Assembly (NCBI RefSeq): GCF_042477335.2
Contig: NC_091245.1
Span: 29,336,501-29,400,500 of the forward strand
DNA length: 64,000 nt
Direction: 5' to 3'
DNA from: Ovis canadensis
Lineage: Eukaryota; Chordata; Mammalia; Artiodactyla; Bovidae
The position numbers were made by a program, and so were the translations under genes. This document shows positions 2,601-57,866 of the stretch, one piece after another. The notes under the pieces were generated by a model. It worked only from the letters and a program-made list of their open reading frames with translations, was not told where the DNA came from and did not search any database. How positions within the stretch are numbered: the stretch's first letter is position 1; every line of letters begins with the position of its first letter.

Positions 2601-3109
2601 CCAGCCTCCTACTCCAATGAGGCTGCCATGATCCTCCAGGTGCCCAGGTGTCAGCCTAACCTTTCTTAACAAGAAGCCCAGTCAAAGGCTAGTATTTGCC
2701 CCTGAAACTCCATGAAACTCTAAGTAAGAAGCACCCCTTGTTTTAGCATCCTCCTTCTCAGCTCCATCAAGTGTTTCATCTTTGCAGGAGGGAGTCATTT
2801 TCCACAAAGAGTTCATAATAACTATACTAATATGTATAATAACTATAAGGCTAAGAGTTATGGGGTGTTATACATCAAGACTGTGCCAAGTATTTTATAT
2901 GCATTATCTCACTTTTTGAAATTCTATTAATATATCTAAAAAGGAACCCTCTACACATGATTAAAACAAAACAAGAGATTACAAAAAGGTATATGGTAAG
3001 CAGTAAGCCTTCCTCCCTCTTCTGCATCCCTGCCTCCCACTTCCCCTCCCAGAGGCTACCCTGTACCACCCAGTTCCTTGGCTGTCCTGAGAGCCTATGA
3101 ATGACTATC

Positions 3110-6530: not shown

Positions 6531-7052
6531 CTTTCTTTTTATATAATTAAAATATTTACTATGGAGCCATGCTTTGAAACCTAAACCTAAAGCAAAACAT
6601 CTCTATTCTTCCATAAACAAAGGCATAGTCTGTCTATACAAACACATTAAGAATGTATTGGACGCAGCCTAAACACTGCTCAAGTTTAATGACCTGTGAT
6701 TACAAAATGGAGTCCAATTTTTGTCCAAAGGACGATGATCCTGAGCCTCACTCTGCATACGTGGGAGTTTCTCTCTCTCAAAGGGCCCCCCAGGTGTTGC
6801 TAGGAATCCTCAAGAGTAGCCGCAAGCCAGCCTGTCGATGGCAGCCACCATGTTTGCCTGTTCTTCCTCTCCAGCTTCGGACTCCATCTTCATCAGTATC
6901 CTCAGCCAGTGACACCCTTGGAAGGAGTCCACTGCCGCCACTGTTCACGGTGCTGTCATGGGGACAGTGTCAGGGCTTAAAAGTGCCCCACACTGCCTTT
7001 GCTCTGCGTGTAATAAGCACTGGGGCCAGGCCCCTGGGTTCAGGTTCCTTGA

Positions 7053-7168
7053 CACCCAGTCCTATCGAGTGCAAGGAGTGGACCCCCTTGTGGACTGAAA
7101 GCTTGTCAACTAGGAGTCCTGGGTCAGGCCACCTCCCCTCTGAACCTGAGGCATCTCAACAGAGACAT
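7053..7168 (+). repeat. Source-like copy of the inverted segment at 7751-7866
   Basis: Reverse complement of 7751-7866, one mismatch in 116 bases. The right part overlaps a MIR-like stretch that continues to about 7280. Confidence 0.92.
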
Positions 7169-7281
7169 AGAGGTGATAACGTGCCCTTGGAAGGCTTGTT
7201 GGGAGGATTACATGAGGTCTATATACATGAAGGCTGGCACATATCAGGCATTCAATAAATGGCAGTTACTGTTATTATTGC

Positions 7282-7560
7282 TTCCCTGATAGCTCAGTTG
7301 ATAAAGAATCTACCTGCAATGAAGGAGAGCCTGGTTCAATTCCTGGGTCGGGAAGATCTGCTGGAGAAGGGATAGGCTACTCACTACAGTATTCCTGGGC
7401 TTCCCTTGAGGCTCAGCTGGTAAAGAATCTACCTGTAATGCGGGGGACCTGGGTGTGATTCCTGGGTTGGGAAGATCCCCTGGAGAAGGGAAAGGCTACC
7501 CACTCCAGTATTCTGACCTGGAGAATTCCATGGACTTTAGAGTCCATGGGGTCGCAAAGA
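7282..7560 (+). mobile_element. Bov-tA SINE, one partial plus one longer copy, 3' end displaced
   Basis: A first copy (7282-7396) stops after CAGTATTCCTG and a second begins GGCTTCCCTTGAGGCTCAG. The second breaks off at GTCGCAAAGAG; its last part, GAGTCAGACACGACTGAGCG, is found only at 7870 onward. Confidence 0.9.
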
Positions 7561-7868
7561 GGCCTTTGCCGGAGAGGAGCTCGGGGCAGAGAGGTGAGCT
7601 GCAAGGTCCTGTCTGGTCAGCCTAGGCTCTGGTCAGGAAGCCAAAATCTGACTGATTTGGCTGAGCCCCTTCCCTCTCAGGAATTTGAGTGGCCACTCCT
7701 GGAGAATCTGCAATGACAACTATACATCCTCACTAGCTGCACCCCCTGCCATGTCTCTGTTGAGATGCCTCAGGTTCAGAGGGGAGGTGGCCTGACCCAG
7801 GACTCCTAGTTGACAAGCTTTCAGTCCACAAGGGGGTCCACTCCTTGCATTCGATAGGACTGGGTGCA
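7557..7868 (+). repeat. Composite insertion of two inverted copies of flanking DNA inside a Bov-tA
   Basis: 7751-7866 is the reverse complement of 7053-7168 with a single mismatch in 116 bases. 7557-7745 is the reverse complement of about 9322-9516 at roughly 85-90% identity by eye with small indels. The two pieces abut and split one Bov-tA, with GAG shared at both outer junctions. Confidence 0.9.
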
Positions 7869-7905
7869 GAGTCAGACACGACTGAGCGACTTTCACCGTT
7901 ATTAT
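7867..7905 (+). mobile_element. Displaced 3' end of the split Bov-tA
   Basis: GAGTCAGACACGACTGAGCG followed by ACTTTCACC continues the SINE interrupted at 7560. Confidence 0.9.
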
Positions 7906-8029
7906 TGCACTGTCTGTGGCTGGGTTTCCCCAGGAACAGTCCCTAAAAAAGGATTTGAGACAAGAGGGAGCACCTGCAGGAATGTTGGAAGGTGAGACAA
8001 GGAAAGGAAAGAAGTGGAGGATGTTATCA

Positions 8030-8383
8030 AATTTTTTTTTTATTTTTTTGTTTTAATTTATTTATTTTTGGTTGTGCGGGTCTTCGTTGCCGTGAAGGCT
8101 TTTCTCCAGTTGTGGCGAGTGGAGGCTACTCTCTAGTTGCAGTAAGCAGGCTTCTCACGTGGTGGCTTCTCTTGGTGCGGAGCACGGGCTCTCGGGTTTC
8201 AGTAGCTGTGGCACACCGGCTCAGTAGTTGCAACTCCTGGACTCTAGAGTGCAGACGCAATAGCTGTGGCACGTGGGCTTTGTTGCTCTGCAGCATGTGG
8301 GATCTTCCTGGATCAGGGATTGAACCCATGTCTCTTGCATTGGTAGGTGGATTCTTTACCACTGAGCCACCCAGGAAGGCCCT
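8030..8383 (-). mobile_element. CHR-2-type SINE, antisense, near full length
   Basis: T-rich reversed tail, GTCTTCGTTGCCGTGAAGGC, repeated 'TAGTTGCA' phrases, GATCAGGGATTGAACCCATG and CACCCAGGAAGGCCC. Confidence 0.92.
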
Positions 8384-9020
8384 CAAATAAGTTTCTGATA
8401 ACCAAGGATTCCACCAAGGAATTCTGGATGATGACATAGAATGTGCCTCAAAGTTGTCCCAGTCAAGGGGTGAGGGAGCTGGAGAGTGTATCAGCCCCTC
8501 ATTGGCTGGGATCTGCCGTGCTGTGCTGTGTCCACATTGGTCTTGGTATGGCAGTTTGAAGCCCTAGAATGTCAGGGCATGAGGTGGCCAAGTGGATCCA
8601 TGGTAGAGATGAGAAGCAGCCCTGGAGAAGAGAAGCTCTAGCCCAAGGTCACTTAGTGAAGCAGAGAGAAGCCAGATCCAAAGCCCCGGGTGTCTAGATC
8701 TCCCACCACCTATGTGGGCATCTTCTCTGAGCTAGCAGGGAGTTGTGCATAAGTGTGTGTGGGGTGTCCTGTGAGCCATCTGGATGCAAGGTCAGCCCTC
8801 CCTCTAACTTTTAGTGCTCCTGGGGTCTCTCAGCCTCTCCCAGATACCTTTCCTTTTCCCATCTGATGTGCCTGGGGCTTATGAAAAACCTCAGCTTTAG
8901 AGAAAGGAGAAGAAAACTGTTATGGAACCCTGGAAATGCTGGTCGAGCAGCCAGAAGCTTCTGTTTCTCCCTTCTCCACCTACATACTTCTGAGGGCCAC
9001 GTATAGACAGGGGACCCCAG

Positions 9021-9220
9021 GGACTTCCCTGGCGGGCCAGTGGTTAAGAATTCATCTTGCAATGCCGGGGATGTGGGTTTGCTCTCTGGTCAGGCATCTA
9101 AGATACCACACGCTGCAAAGCAACTAAACCCTCACCACCACAACTACAGAGTCCTTGCCCAGCAACACAGATTCTCCATGCCACAAAGACCCAATGCAGC
9201 CAAATATTTAAAAAAAAAAA
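9021..9220 (+). mobile_element. CHR-2-type SINE with A tail
   Basis: GGGACTTCCCTGGCGGGCC head, CCACAAAGACCCAATGCAGC near the end and an 11-base A run. Confidence 0.9.
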
Positions 9221-9232
9221 GGGGGGGGGGGG
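9210..9232 (+). repeat. A11-G12 homopolymer junction
   Basis: Eleven A are followed directly by twelve G at the end of the CHR SINE. Confidence 0.95.
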
Positions 9233-9321
9233 ACTCATTAGTGTTCCCTGAGATAAGCCCTTTCCTGTGCAGAGCCAAGGGACCTGCAAAGTGAGGAGGT
9301 CCTATGGAGGCTCTGGGAGGT

Positions 9322-9516
9322 GGGGTTACAGCTAGTGAGGATGTATAGCAGTCAATGCAGATTCTCCAGGAGCGGCCTTTCAAATGCCTGAGAGGGAAGG
9401 GACTCAGCCAAGTCACTCAGTCAGATCCTGGCTTCCTGACCAGAGCCTAGACTGACCAGACGAGACCTTGCAGCTCACCCTCTCTCCTCCAAGCTCCTCT
9501 CCTGCAAGGCCTCTCG
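9322..9516 (+). repeat. Source-like copy of the inverted segment at 7557-7745
   Basis: Reverse complement of 7557-7745, including GCTAGTGAGGATGTATAGCA and GGTGAGCTGCAAGGT-type matches with small indels. Confidence 0.85.
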
Positions 9517-10289
9517 GGATTGTCCCTACTCTGCACCACTGCAAATCTGTGTCACTTGCCTGGGTTATCAGTGCTTTCCTCCTTCCCAGATAGAAGTCAA
9601 GGTCATTGGTTCTTACCCAGAATAATGGCTGCAACATCGGCACTGTGGACCATTTCATCCTTGAATTCCTCTCAATTTTTCCAACATCACAGTCTTCTGG
9701 TTTCTCCTCTTAGGTCTCTCAGGCCTCTGTGGATTGTTTCATTTGTTCAACGAGGATTTATGCTGCTACTTGTTTGTGTTAGTCATTGCACTTGGGCCTG
9801 GTTACTCAGTGGTGAGCAAGATGGTCAGGATGAGCAGGAACTGCCTTCCAGAACCCTCAGGGTCCTGTTCTGAGCCTCCTTCCACCTGCCGCCTCTCTAC
9901 TCCCTCCTGATAATCTCAGCTACAAACTGATGACTGTCAAACCCCCCTCTTCTGCCCAGACTTTTTCTTGAGTTCCACACAGATCCACACAGATCCACAT
10001 CTCTAACCCCTTGGAGGGCGTTTGCACCTGATGGTCTACAAGCAACTCAAATTTGCAAGGTCCAAACCGAGCTCATGATCTTCTCCCAAAACCTATCTTC
10101 CTCTATAGCTTGTCTCAAGAGCAATGAGCTCGGGAGACGTTTTTCACTCCTCCCTCTAGCACTTACAACATCTGCCTTCTAAATCAGTGCAGCCCTTCTG
10201 TCTTCCCATGTCAGTGACCTATGCTGCATCCATCTTCCTCATCCAGACTTGTCCCCTCCAAACAACTGCATGGACTCAGCTAGAGGGAT

Positions 10290-53066: not shown

Positions 53067-53411
53067 GTGCCCCTGGGGGCAGCCAGGTTGCAGGTGACAT
53101 TCCCCTGGGTCTGGCGCGGGAGCTGATGCAGGCTCACCTGCCCTGCAAGCTGGCTGGTGTGGCCTACCATCCGGCCCTGTGTGCCCACCTGGCCGCCATG
53201 CTGAGTGCCGAGATCCGGGACCTGGTCAGGGCTGTCACCCTACCCCACTACAGGCTGGTGTGCTCCATCGGCATTGGGGGCAAGGGGCAGGTCAGCGTGG
53301 TGGTCTCCAGCAGGTGCCTGCAGGACCCACATGCAGACAGCTTTGCCACCCCTCTATGTGAACCCCATGCTCTTCTGCATGGCGCTGGTACACACAATCT
53401 ATTTGGAGTGA
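53067..53411 (+). pseudogene. Tctex1-type dynein light chain-like exon with a frameshift
   Basis: The frame from 53067 encodes a typical Tctex1 C-terminal fold: an ARELMQ helix, YHPALCAHLAAMLSAEIRD helix, the PHYRLVCSIGIG strand, VVVSSRC and DPHADSFA. After SFA the frame breaks by one base in a C-rich run near 53345-53354, and the family's final strands continue in another frame (YVNPMLF, then VHTIYLE and TGA at 53409-53411). The start follows a strong polypyrimidine tract and CCAG. Tctex1 proteins are dynein light chains or cilium-linked relatives. The frameshift and the duplicated end suggest a pseudogene; a sequence error in the C run is the alternative. I cannot assign it to a named DYNLT gene. 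Confidence 0.75.
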
Positions 53412-53643
53412 GTCAAGCCAGGGTTCGATTCCTAGGTTGGGAAGATCCTCTGGAGAAGGGAATGGCAATCCACTTCAGTATTCTTGCCTGGAGAATCCCA
53501 TGGACAGAGGAGCCTGGTGGGTTACAGTTCGTGGGGTTGCAGAGTCAGACACGACTGAGTGACTAACACACACACACACACTGCGTGAACCCCACGCTCT
53601 TCTGGGTGGCGCTGGTACACGCCATCTATTTGGAGTGAGTCAA
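53354..53643 (+). repeat. 63-bp duplicated exon end flanking a BovA SINE
   Basis: 53354-53416 and 53581-53643 are the same 63 bases with about 7 differences. Each copy contains the last codons of the Tctex1-like frame, the stop and GTGAGTCAA. A BovA fragment with an (AC)n tail fills the space between them. Normal SINE target duplications are about 7-20 bases. Confidence 0.9.
53417..53580 (+). mobile_element. BovA-type SINE fragment with (AC)n tail
   Basis: Starts inside the tRNA-related part (GGTTCGATTCCTAGGTTGGG), runs through GACAGAGGAGCCTGG and ends GACACGACTGAGTGAC plus (AC)8. The first ~45 bases of the full element are missing. Confidence 0.88.
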
Positions 53644-57591: not shown

Positions 57592-57866
57592 AAAGTTGCT
57601 CAGTTGTGTCTGACTCTAAATTCTCCAGGCTAGAATACTGCAGTGGGTAGTCTTTCCCTTCTCCAGGGGATCTTCCCAACCCAGGGATCGAACCCAAGTC
57701 TCCCAAATTGCAGGTGGATTCTTTACCAGCTGAGCCATAAAGGAAACCCAAGAATACTGAAGTGGGTAGCCTATCCCTTCTCCGGCAGACCTTCACAACC
57801 CAGGAATCAAACTGGGGCCTCCTGCATTGCAGGTGGATTCTTCACGGAGCTATCAGGGAAGCCCGG
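57590..57866 (-). mobile_element. Bov-tA SINE, antisense, with duplicated inner part
   Basis: GTGAAAGTTGCTCAGTTGTG to AGCTATCAGGGAAGCCCGG. The block from AGAATACTG through GGTGGATTCTT appears twice. Confidence 0.9.

Follow-up and report, generated by a model that had tools for sequence, protein, structure and literature searches.

The window, a stretch of 64,000 nucleotides of Ovis canadensis DNA, contains a SINE interrupted by 310 bp (7562-7871). The interruption consists of two inverted copies of nearby DNA, pieces A and B. The features of the locus are listed below.

7012-7277, plus strand: old MIR, unbroken through 7168, with the SINE inserted in its tail (BLAST match from 7118, start possibly 7012)
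7053-7168, plus strand: donor of piece B, in its ancestral place (115/116 identical to the reverse complement of 7751-7866)
7271-7281, plus strand: left target-site duplication of the SINE, GTTATTATTGC, exact match
7282-7897, plus strand: dimeric SINE, presumably of Bov-tA type, flanked by an exact 11-bp target-site duplication
7282-7561, plus strand: 5' part of the SINE, with monomer repeats at 7280-7394 and 7399-7513
7558-7561, plus strand: AGAG at the left joint, a 4-nt microhomology common to the SINE and the A donor
7558-7745, minus strand: piece A, inverted copy of 9323-9514, 10.7% diverged
7746-7750, no strand assigned: CTGCC at the A/B joint, five bases with a clean fit to neither donor
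7751-7866, minus strand: piece B, inverted copy of 7053-7168, 0.9% diverged
7868-7871, plus strand: second AGAG, after the insert, where the SINE resumes
7868-7897, plus strand: 3' part of the SINE, following the insert
7898-7908, plus strand: right target-site duplication of the SINE, GTTATTATTGC, exact match
9323-9514, plus strand: donor of piece A, with no further copy found in the genome besides the insert

The 11-mer GTTATTATTGC occurs twice in the window, exactly flanking the SINE, where 0.01 copies are expected. Because it lies on both flanks and nowhere else in the window, the split SINE is a single element. With the 310 bp removed, its end is colinear with other SINE copies. The same dimeric monomer arrangement (7280-7513) recurs in the window at 57619-57861. 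A second partial match also lies directly upstream in 23 of 39 other genomic copies scored (the best 39 of 3,860 candidates). Hence, the dimer is a family trait and not a local duplication. At 9210-9232, the end of a SINE-like element reads 11 A followed directly by 12 G.

BLAST of positions 7000-8100 against the window aligned 7558-7746 with 9514-9322 on the minus strand (86.6% identity over 194 columns). It also aligned 7751-7866 with 7168-7053, again on the minus strand (115/116). A repeat search of the window recovered both arm pairs, the A pair as three ungapped segments. In global alignments, piece A differed from the reverse complement of 9323-9514 at 20 of 187 aligned bases, with four gaps (8 columns), and piece B from that of 7053-7168 at 1 of 116. 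The A mismatches comprise 13 transitions and 7 transversions; four are in a CpG context. Observed scores were 225 and 205 bits, while 500 Markov-shuffled inserts compared with the rest of the window reached at most 36.5 bits. These comparisons confirm what an earlier note had described from the sequence, a composite insertion of two inverted local copies splitting a SINE. The boundaries needed small corrections. The interruption itself stands, but the limits of 7560 and about 7867 give way to 7562 and 7871. Similarly, the inverted donor of piece A is local as claimed, but runs from 9323 to 9514 and not from 9322 to 9516.

The insert contains copies of donors that are both still present in place, one ~0.4 kb and the other ~1.5 kb from where the insert lies. 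The arms of the B pair (116 bp) are 582 bp apart and those of the A pair ~1.58 kb. Both pieces are inverted and collinear: the bottom strand reads 7053-7168 and then 9323-9514, the order of the chromosome, a point absent from the earlier note.

Amplification chimeras are near-perfect, inverted, short-range copies. Piece B has all of these properties, so we considered an assembly or library chimera, absent from the animal, with piece A alone being real. However, B sits exactly between A and the right half of the SINE. It also has one base difference from its donor, and the contigs of the assembly are chromosome-scale. We consider such an artefact improbable.

We searched the animal's own genome (G000; 2.97 Gb in 42 contigs) with a method that skips very common words. 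The 310-bp insert gave three matches: itself and the two local donors. The A donor with its flanks (9230-9620) gave two, itself and the insert. A second joined A-B unit was not found in these 2.97 Gb, very common words being skipped. The dispersed family holding both segments already joined, which the earlier note had raised as a contrary outcome, was thus sought across the genome and not found. Since the search returned the insert and its local donors only, a dispersed repeat or mobile element was rejected. A diverged paralog as the donor of A was rejected as well, with none found in the same search, and this disfavours the note's suggestion of another source for the older half. Scans of a prokaryote genome collection with a 21-mer and of a viral collection with a 20-mer gave no orthologous match, which is the expected outcome for such collections.

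Direction of copying and structure of the joints

The element taken as a MIR gives the direction of copying for piece B. Its BLAST match at 7118-7268 is modest (E = 6e-6), standing in row 21 of the window's 28 MIR rows. Local alignment of 7012-7277 scored 125, and the maximum in 300 mononucleotide shuffles was 78. Because this old MIR continues unbroken across 7168, where 7053-7168 has its inner edge, that segment is the source in its ancestral place. Conversely, 7751-7866, which breaks the SINE, is the copy. For piece A the polarity follows from its splitting of the SINE: 7558-7745 is the copy. We rejected the idea that the spacer separating the B arms has been inverted, because the MIR is continuous at 7168 and the SINE halves point in the same direction. 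Together, these two observations imply that the present orientation is ancestral, unless an even number of flips has restored it.

The AGAG is duplicated around the insert, ending the left half of the SINE and beginning the right half. The earlier note had seen GAG at both outer joints; the bases are indeed shared, but the shared motif is longer by one. At the right joint, the match of piece B stops at 7866 and is followed by one extra C and then the AGAG of the SINE, leaving 0-1 shared base. On inspection of the sequence, clean microhomology was absent from both the right joint and the A/B joint. Possibly, the return was instead to a GGGT slightly upstream, with small deletions later. Under either reading, SINE bases are duplicated and none is lost. 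The clear target duplication around the insert is 4 bp; a longer, imperfect one is obtained only with the GGGT return and later deletions. No direct duplications flanking the insert were found beyond the 4-bp AGAG, and neither edge of the insert carries poly-A.

Retrotransposition is disfavoured, as the insert has neither poly-A nor a long target-site duplication. In a related scheme, the insert is an RNA-templated patch: a spliced plus-strand transcript, with exons near 7053-7168 and 9323-9514, was reverse-transcribed and inserted backwards. The bottom-strand pieces are in transcript order, there is an AG/GT 4 bases past 7168, and an AG at 9330-9331 lies near the start of the A donor. However, the joint is off those splice signals and the intervening bases are unlike a spliced product. 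The homology of piece A also extends past the AG at 9330-9331, and the insert combines a lack of poly-A with a clear duplication of 4 bp. We give this scheme almost no credence. A processed transcript was likewise rejected, since there is no poly-A and the joint is away from splice signals.

The insert appears to be best explained by serial microhomology-primed template switching, which is an established type of event. This fits because there is microhomology at the left joint, no target base was lost and the donors are strictly local. The preference of the earlier note for template switching over transposition is therefore supported by the left joint, by the local donors and by the lack of poly-A or a long duplication. 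Briefly, we envisage that replication or break repair went wrong in the germline not long after insertion of the SINE. A nascent 3' end within the SINE would have left its template at AGAG (7558-7561). The AGAG microhomology would have primed synthesis on the opposite strand at 9514, with copying to about 9323. A second jump, to the opposite strand at 7168, would have been followed by copying to 7053. Return to the SINE at or just before the exit point would then duplicate AGAG with no loss of SINE bases. The mirror-image order, starting from the other side, may equally apply. Because the order of the pieces on the bottom strand is that of the chromosome, a single excursion on one strand, skipping ~2.15 kb, and two separate switches are equally economical.

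Unequal ages of the two pieces

The consensus used to date the SINE was the majority of 29 near copies, taken from the best 39 other copies scored among 3,860 candidates; 8 of the 29 were re-oriented to one strand. The second monomer and tail of the SINE differ from this majority at 11 of 185 positions (5.9%; 95% CI 3.0-10.4%), a value biased downward by the use of the nearest copies. The 29 copies themselves average 5.0% from the majority. Within the window, the best relative has 19 differences in 191.

The A pair has diverged by 10.7% (95% CI 6.7-16.0%), equating to 5.3% per copy. Because this matches the ~6% of the SINE, piece A is about as old as the SINE. Divergence of the B pair is 0.86%, with a wide interval (95% CI 0.02-4.7%). 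At the rate of A, the probability of at most one mismatch in 116 is 3e-5, and Fisher's exact test of A against B gives 7e-4. By these counts, piece B looks about twelve times younger than piece A. Substitutions accumulate at roughly 2e-9 per site per year; at such a rate A would be ~25 million and B ~2 million years old, with wide error. The contrast between B, A and the distance of the SINE from its consensus is telling only if A and B entered together.

One young event would make the two pieces equally young. Piece A must then have been copied from a diverged relative of 9323-9514, or with very many errors. However, no other relative of A was found in the genome search, very common words being skipped. 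Moreover, 20 changes and four gaps in 187 bases are far above usual copying errors. The mixture of transitions and transversions also speaks against it, as does the spacing of the changes: there are 4 adjacent pairs against 2.0 expected, so clustering is not significant (P = 0.12) and clustered errors were rejected. Finally, the divergence of A coincides with the age of the SINE. We judge a single young event highly improbable.

The age gap would be explained directly if there had been two independent template-switch insertions, that of A soon after arrival of the SINE and that of B much later, at the exact A/SINE boundary. Local insertions of this kind may not be rare, as described below. However, the second insertion must fall within 1-2 bases of the edge of the first. 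If positions are uniform over the SINE, the chance of landing within 2 bp of the A/SINE boundary is ~1%. The same orientation and collinearity of the pieces are also readily given by a single excursion, although they weigh little for a single event, having a chance of 1 in 4. Two events are hence unlikely, though they deserve some weight.

Our preferred explanation of the age gap, at a probability of about 60%, is one old event with later homogenisation of the B arms, which lie close together. This reading is favoured because it requires only the known tendency of inverted-repeat arms to become alike. Homogenisation of such arms, both long and short, is documented in one report (PMC8604942). 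The anatomy, the local donors, the lack of a further copy in the genome search, the copying direction of B and the age gap itself are observed, and from them we infer the enzymatic route, the common origin of both pieces and the part played by homogenisation in the age gap. The B pair would have been homogenised later, by gene conversion or by template switching between the arms of the inverted repeat, while the wider A pair kept diverging. It counts against this explanation that the supposed homogenisation of B spans the entire arm, from edge to edge. Arms of 116 bp are short for gene conversion in a mammal. The A/B and right joints, with their lack of clean microhomology, also weigh against it.

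Under one old event with later homogenisation, the split SINE is a clock and pieces A and B share a birthday. We offer more tentatively, at somewhat less than even odds, an account of one event with two fates: arm-to-arm correction kept the close pair near-identical for tens of millions of years and the wider pair diverged neutrally. If true, spacing (582 bp against ~1.58 kb) would largely decide which short inverted repeats homogenise in the mammalian germline, and homogenisation would act at arm lengths of only ~116 bp. The locus could serve as a natural paired experiment on spacing and homogenisation of short inverted repeats.

Related insertions in other genomes and in a control sample

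The scar belongs to a documented class, of which the locus is a new member. Among the titles listed for template switching or inverted duplication in cattle and sheep, none concerned the locus or such ruminant scars. Among the closest known relatives are complex templated insertions of the human germline linked to MMBIR (MMB-TI), reported to draw on several nearby templates in inverted or direct orientation (PMC8421209). In that report, complex insertions made up 33 of 103 curated germline calls in one person and 26 of 99 in another. As in MMB-TI, the insert described here has two pieces, each from an identifiable nearby template, and the donors were left in place. The report gives microhomology at most MMB-TI joints; here the left joint has 4 nt, and the A/B and right joints are ambiguous. 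However, its search took inverted templates within 100 bp from short reads, whereas the donors here are ~0.4 and ~1.5 kb away and the pieces measure 116 and ~190 bp (PMC8421209).

Long reads from 1,019 humans gave 277 inverted duplications with a median of 284 bp (PMC12350158). Most had 1-15 bp of microhomology, and the authors of that study read the events as replicative. Those events are polymorphic and are classed as inverted duplications, whereas ours comes from one assembly, has two pieces and, judged from piece A, is old. Short-range template switches in great apes also involve reverse-complement copying of nearby DNA in an excursion with a return, as seen here, and the return may precede the exit (PMC7954356). 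In contrast to our two pieces, they are described by a single-fragment model, with a median of 12 bases and a longest case of 128 in the gold-standard set.

Class 2 templated sequence insertion polymorphisms (TSIP) resemble the insert as patches with microhomology and without poly-A (PMC5110952). The report on them describes distant donors and discusses RNA templates; here the donors are local. Class 1 TSIP, or retrotransposition, was rejected: it has poly-A and a target duplication of at least 5 bp, and the clear duplication here is 4 bp. Small inverted triplications, with a DUP/IN/DUP structure of 148/160/148 bp, have likewise been attributed to template switching and share an inverted piece with our locus (PMC13334657). 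These have flanking direct duplications, whereas ours has none beyond the 4-bp AGAG. Hence, with both flanking direct duplications absent around the insert, a small inverted triplication was rejected.

The control comprised 15 stretches of this genome, each 10 kb long (L034-L048), together with 29 loci of ~3.2 kb around similar SINEs (L005-L033). Coordinates were chosen as round numbers, not by a formal random draw, and three control loci, L035 included, contain masked bases. Repeat pairs of at least 35 bp and at most 10 kb apart were retained if low-copy, meaning that the median number of further matches to the two sides within the pooled sample did not exceed 2; local copies of common repeats were dropped. 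Inverted low-copy pairs were present in 1 of the 15 stretches and 0 of the 29 SINE loci.

The single inverted pair, in L035, proved to be part of a second two-piece local insertion (L035:9319-9508; G000:C1:90009319-90009508). Its first piece, 9319-9404, is a direct copy of 9690-9775 (86/86). The second, 9402-9508 (107 bp), is an inverted match to 8472-8579, at 96% over 108 columns. The pieces abut with a 3-base overlap at the joint, and the labels of donor and copy rest on that abutment. Against the whole genome, the best three matches of this insert were itself and its two local partners (40 scored of 65 candidates). The other 37 of the 40, none above 76 bases or 63.5 bits, were short or weak and all fell in the second piece, indicating that it includes a fragment of a dispersed repeat. 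The rate of two-piece insertions is thus one in 150 kb, a crude figure with a very wide error, and such scars are probably not rare in this genome.

Of the direct low-copy pairs, two were in L035, including the 9319-9404 piece, and the window (53358-53643) and L027 had a single pair each. The pair in the window is a 59-bp direct repeat (53358-53416 and 53585-53643; 91.5% identical) on either side of a SINE fragment (match 53418-53564), and it far exceeds the usual length of a target-site duplication. That in L027 joins 2615-2738 and 2964-3089, 226 bp apart and 78.6% identical over 126 columns.
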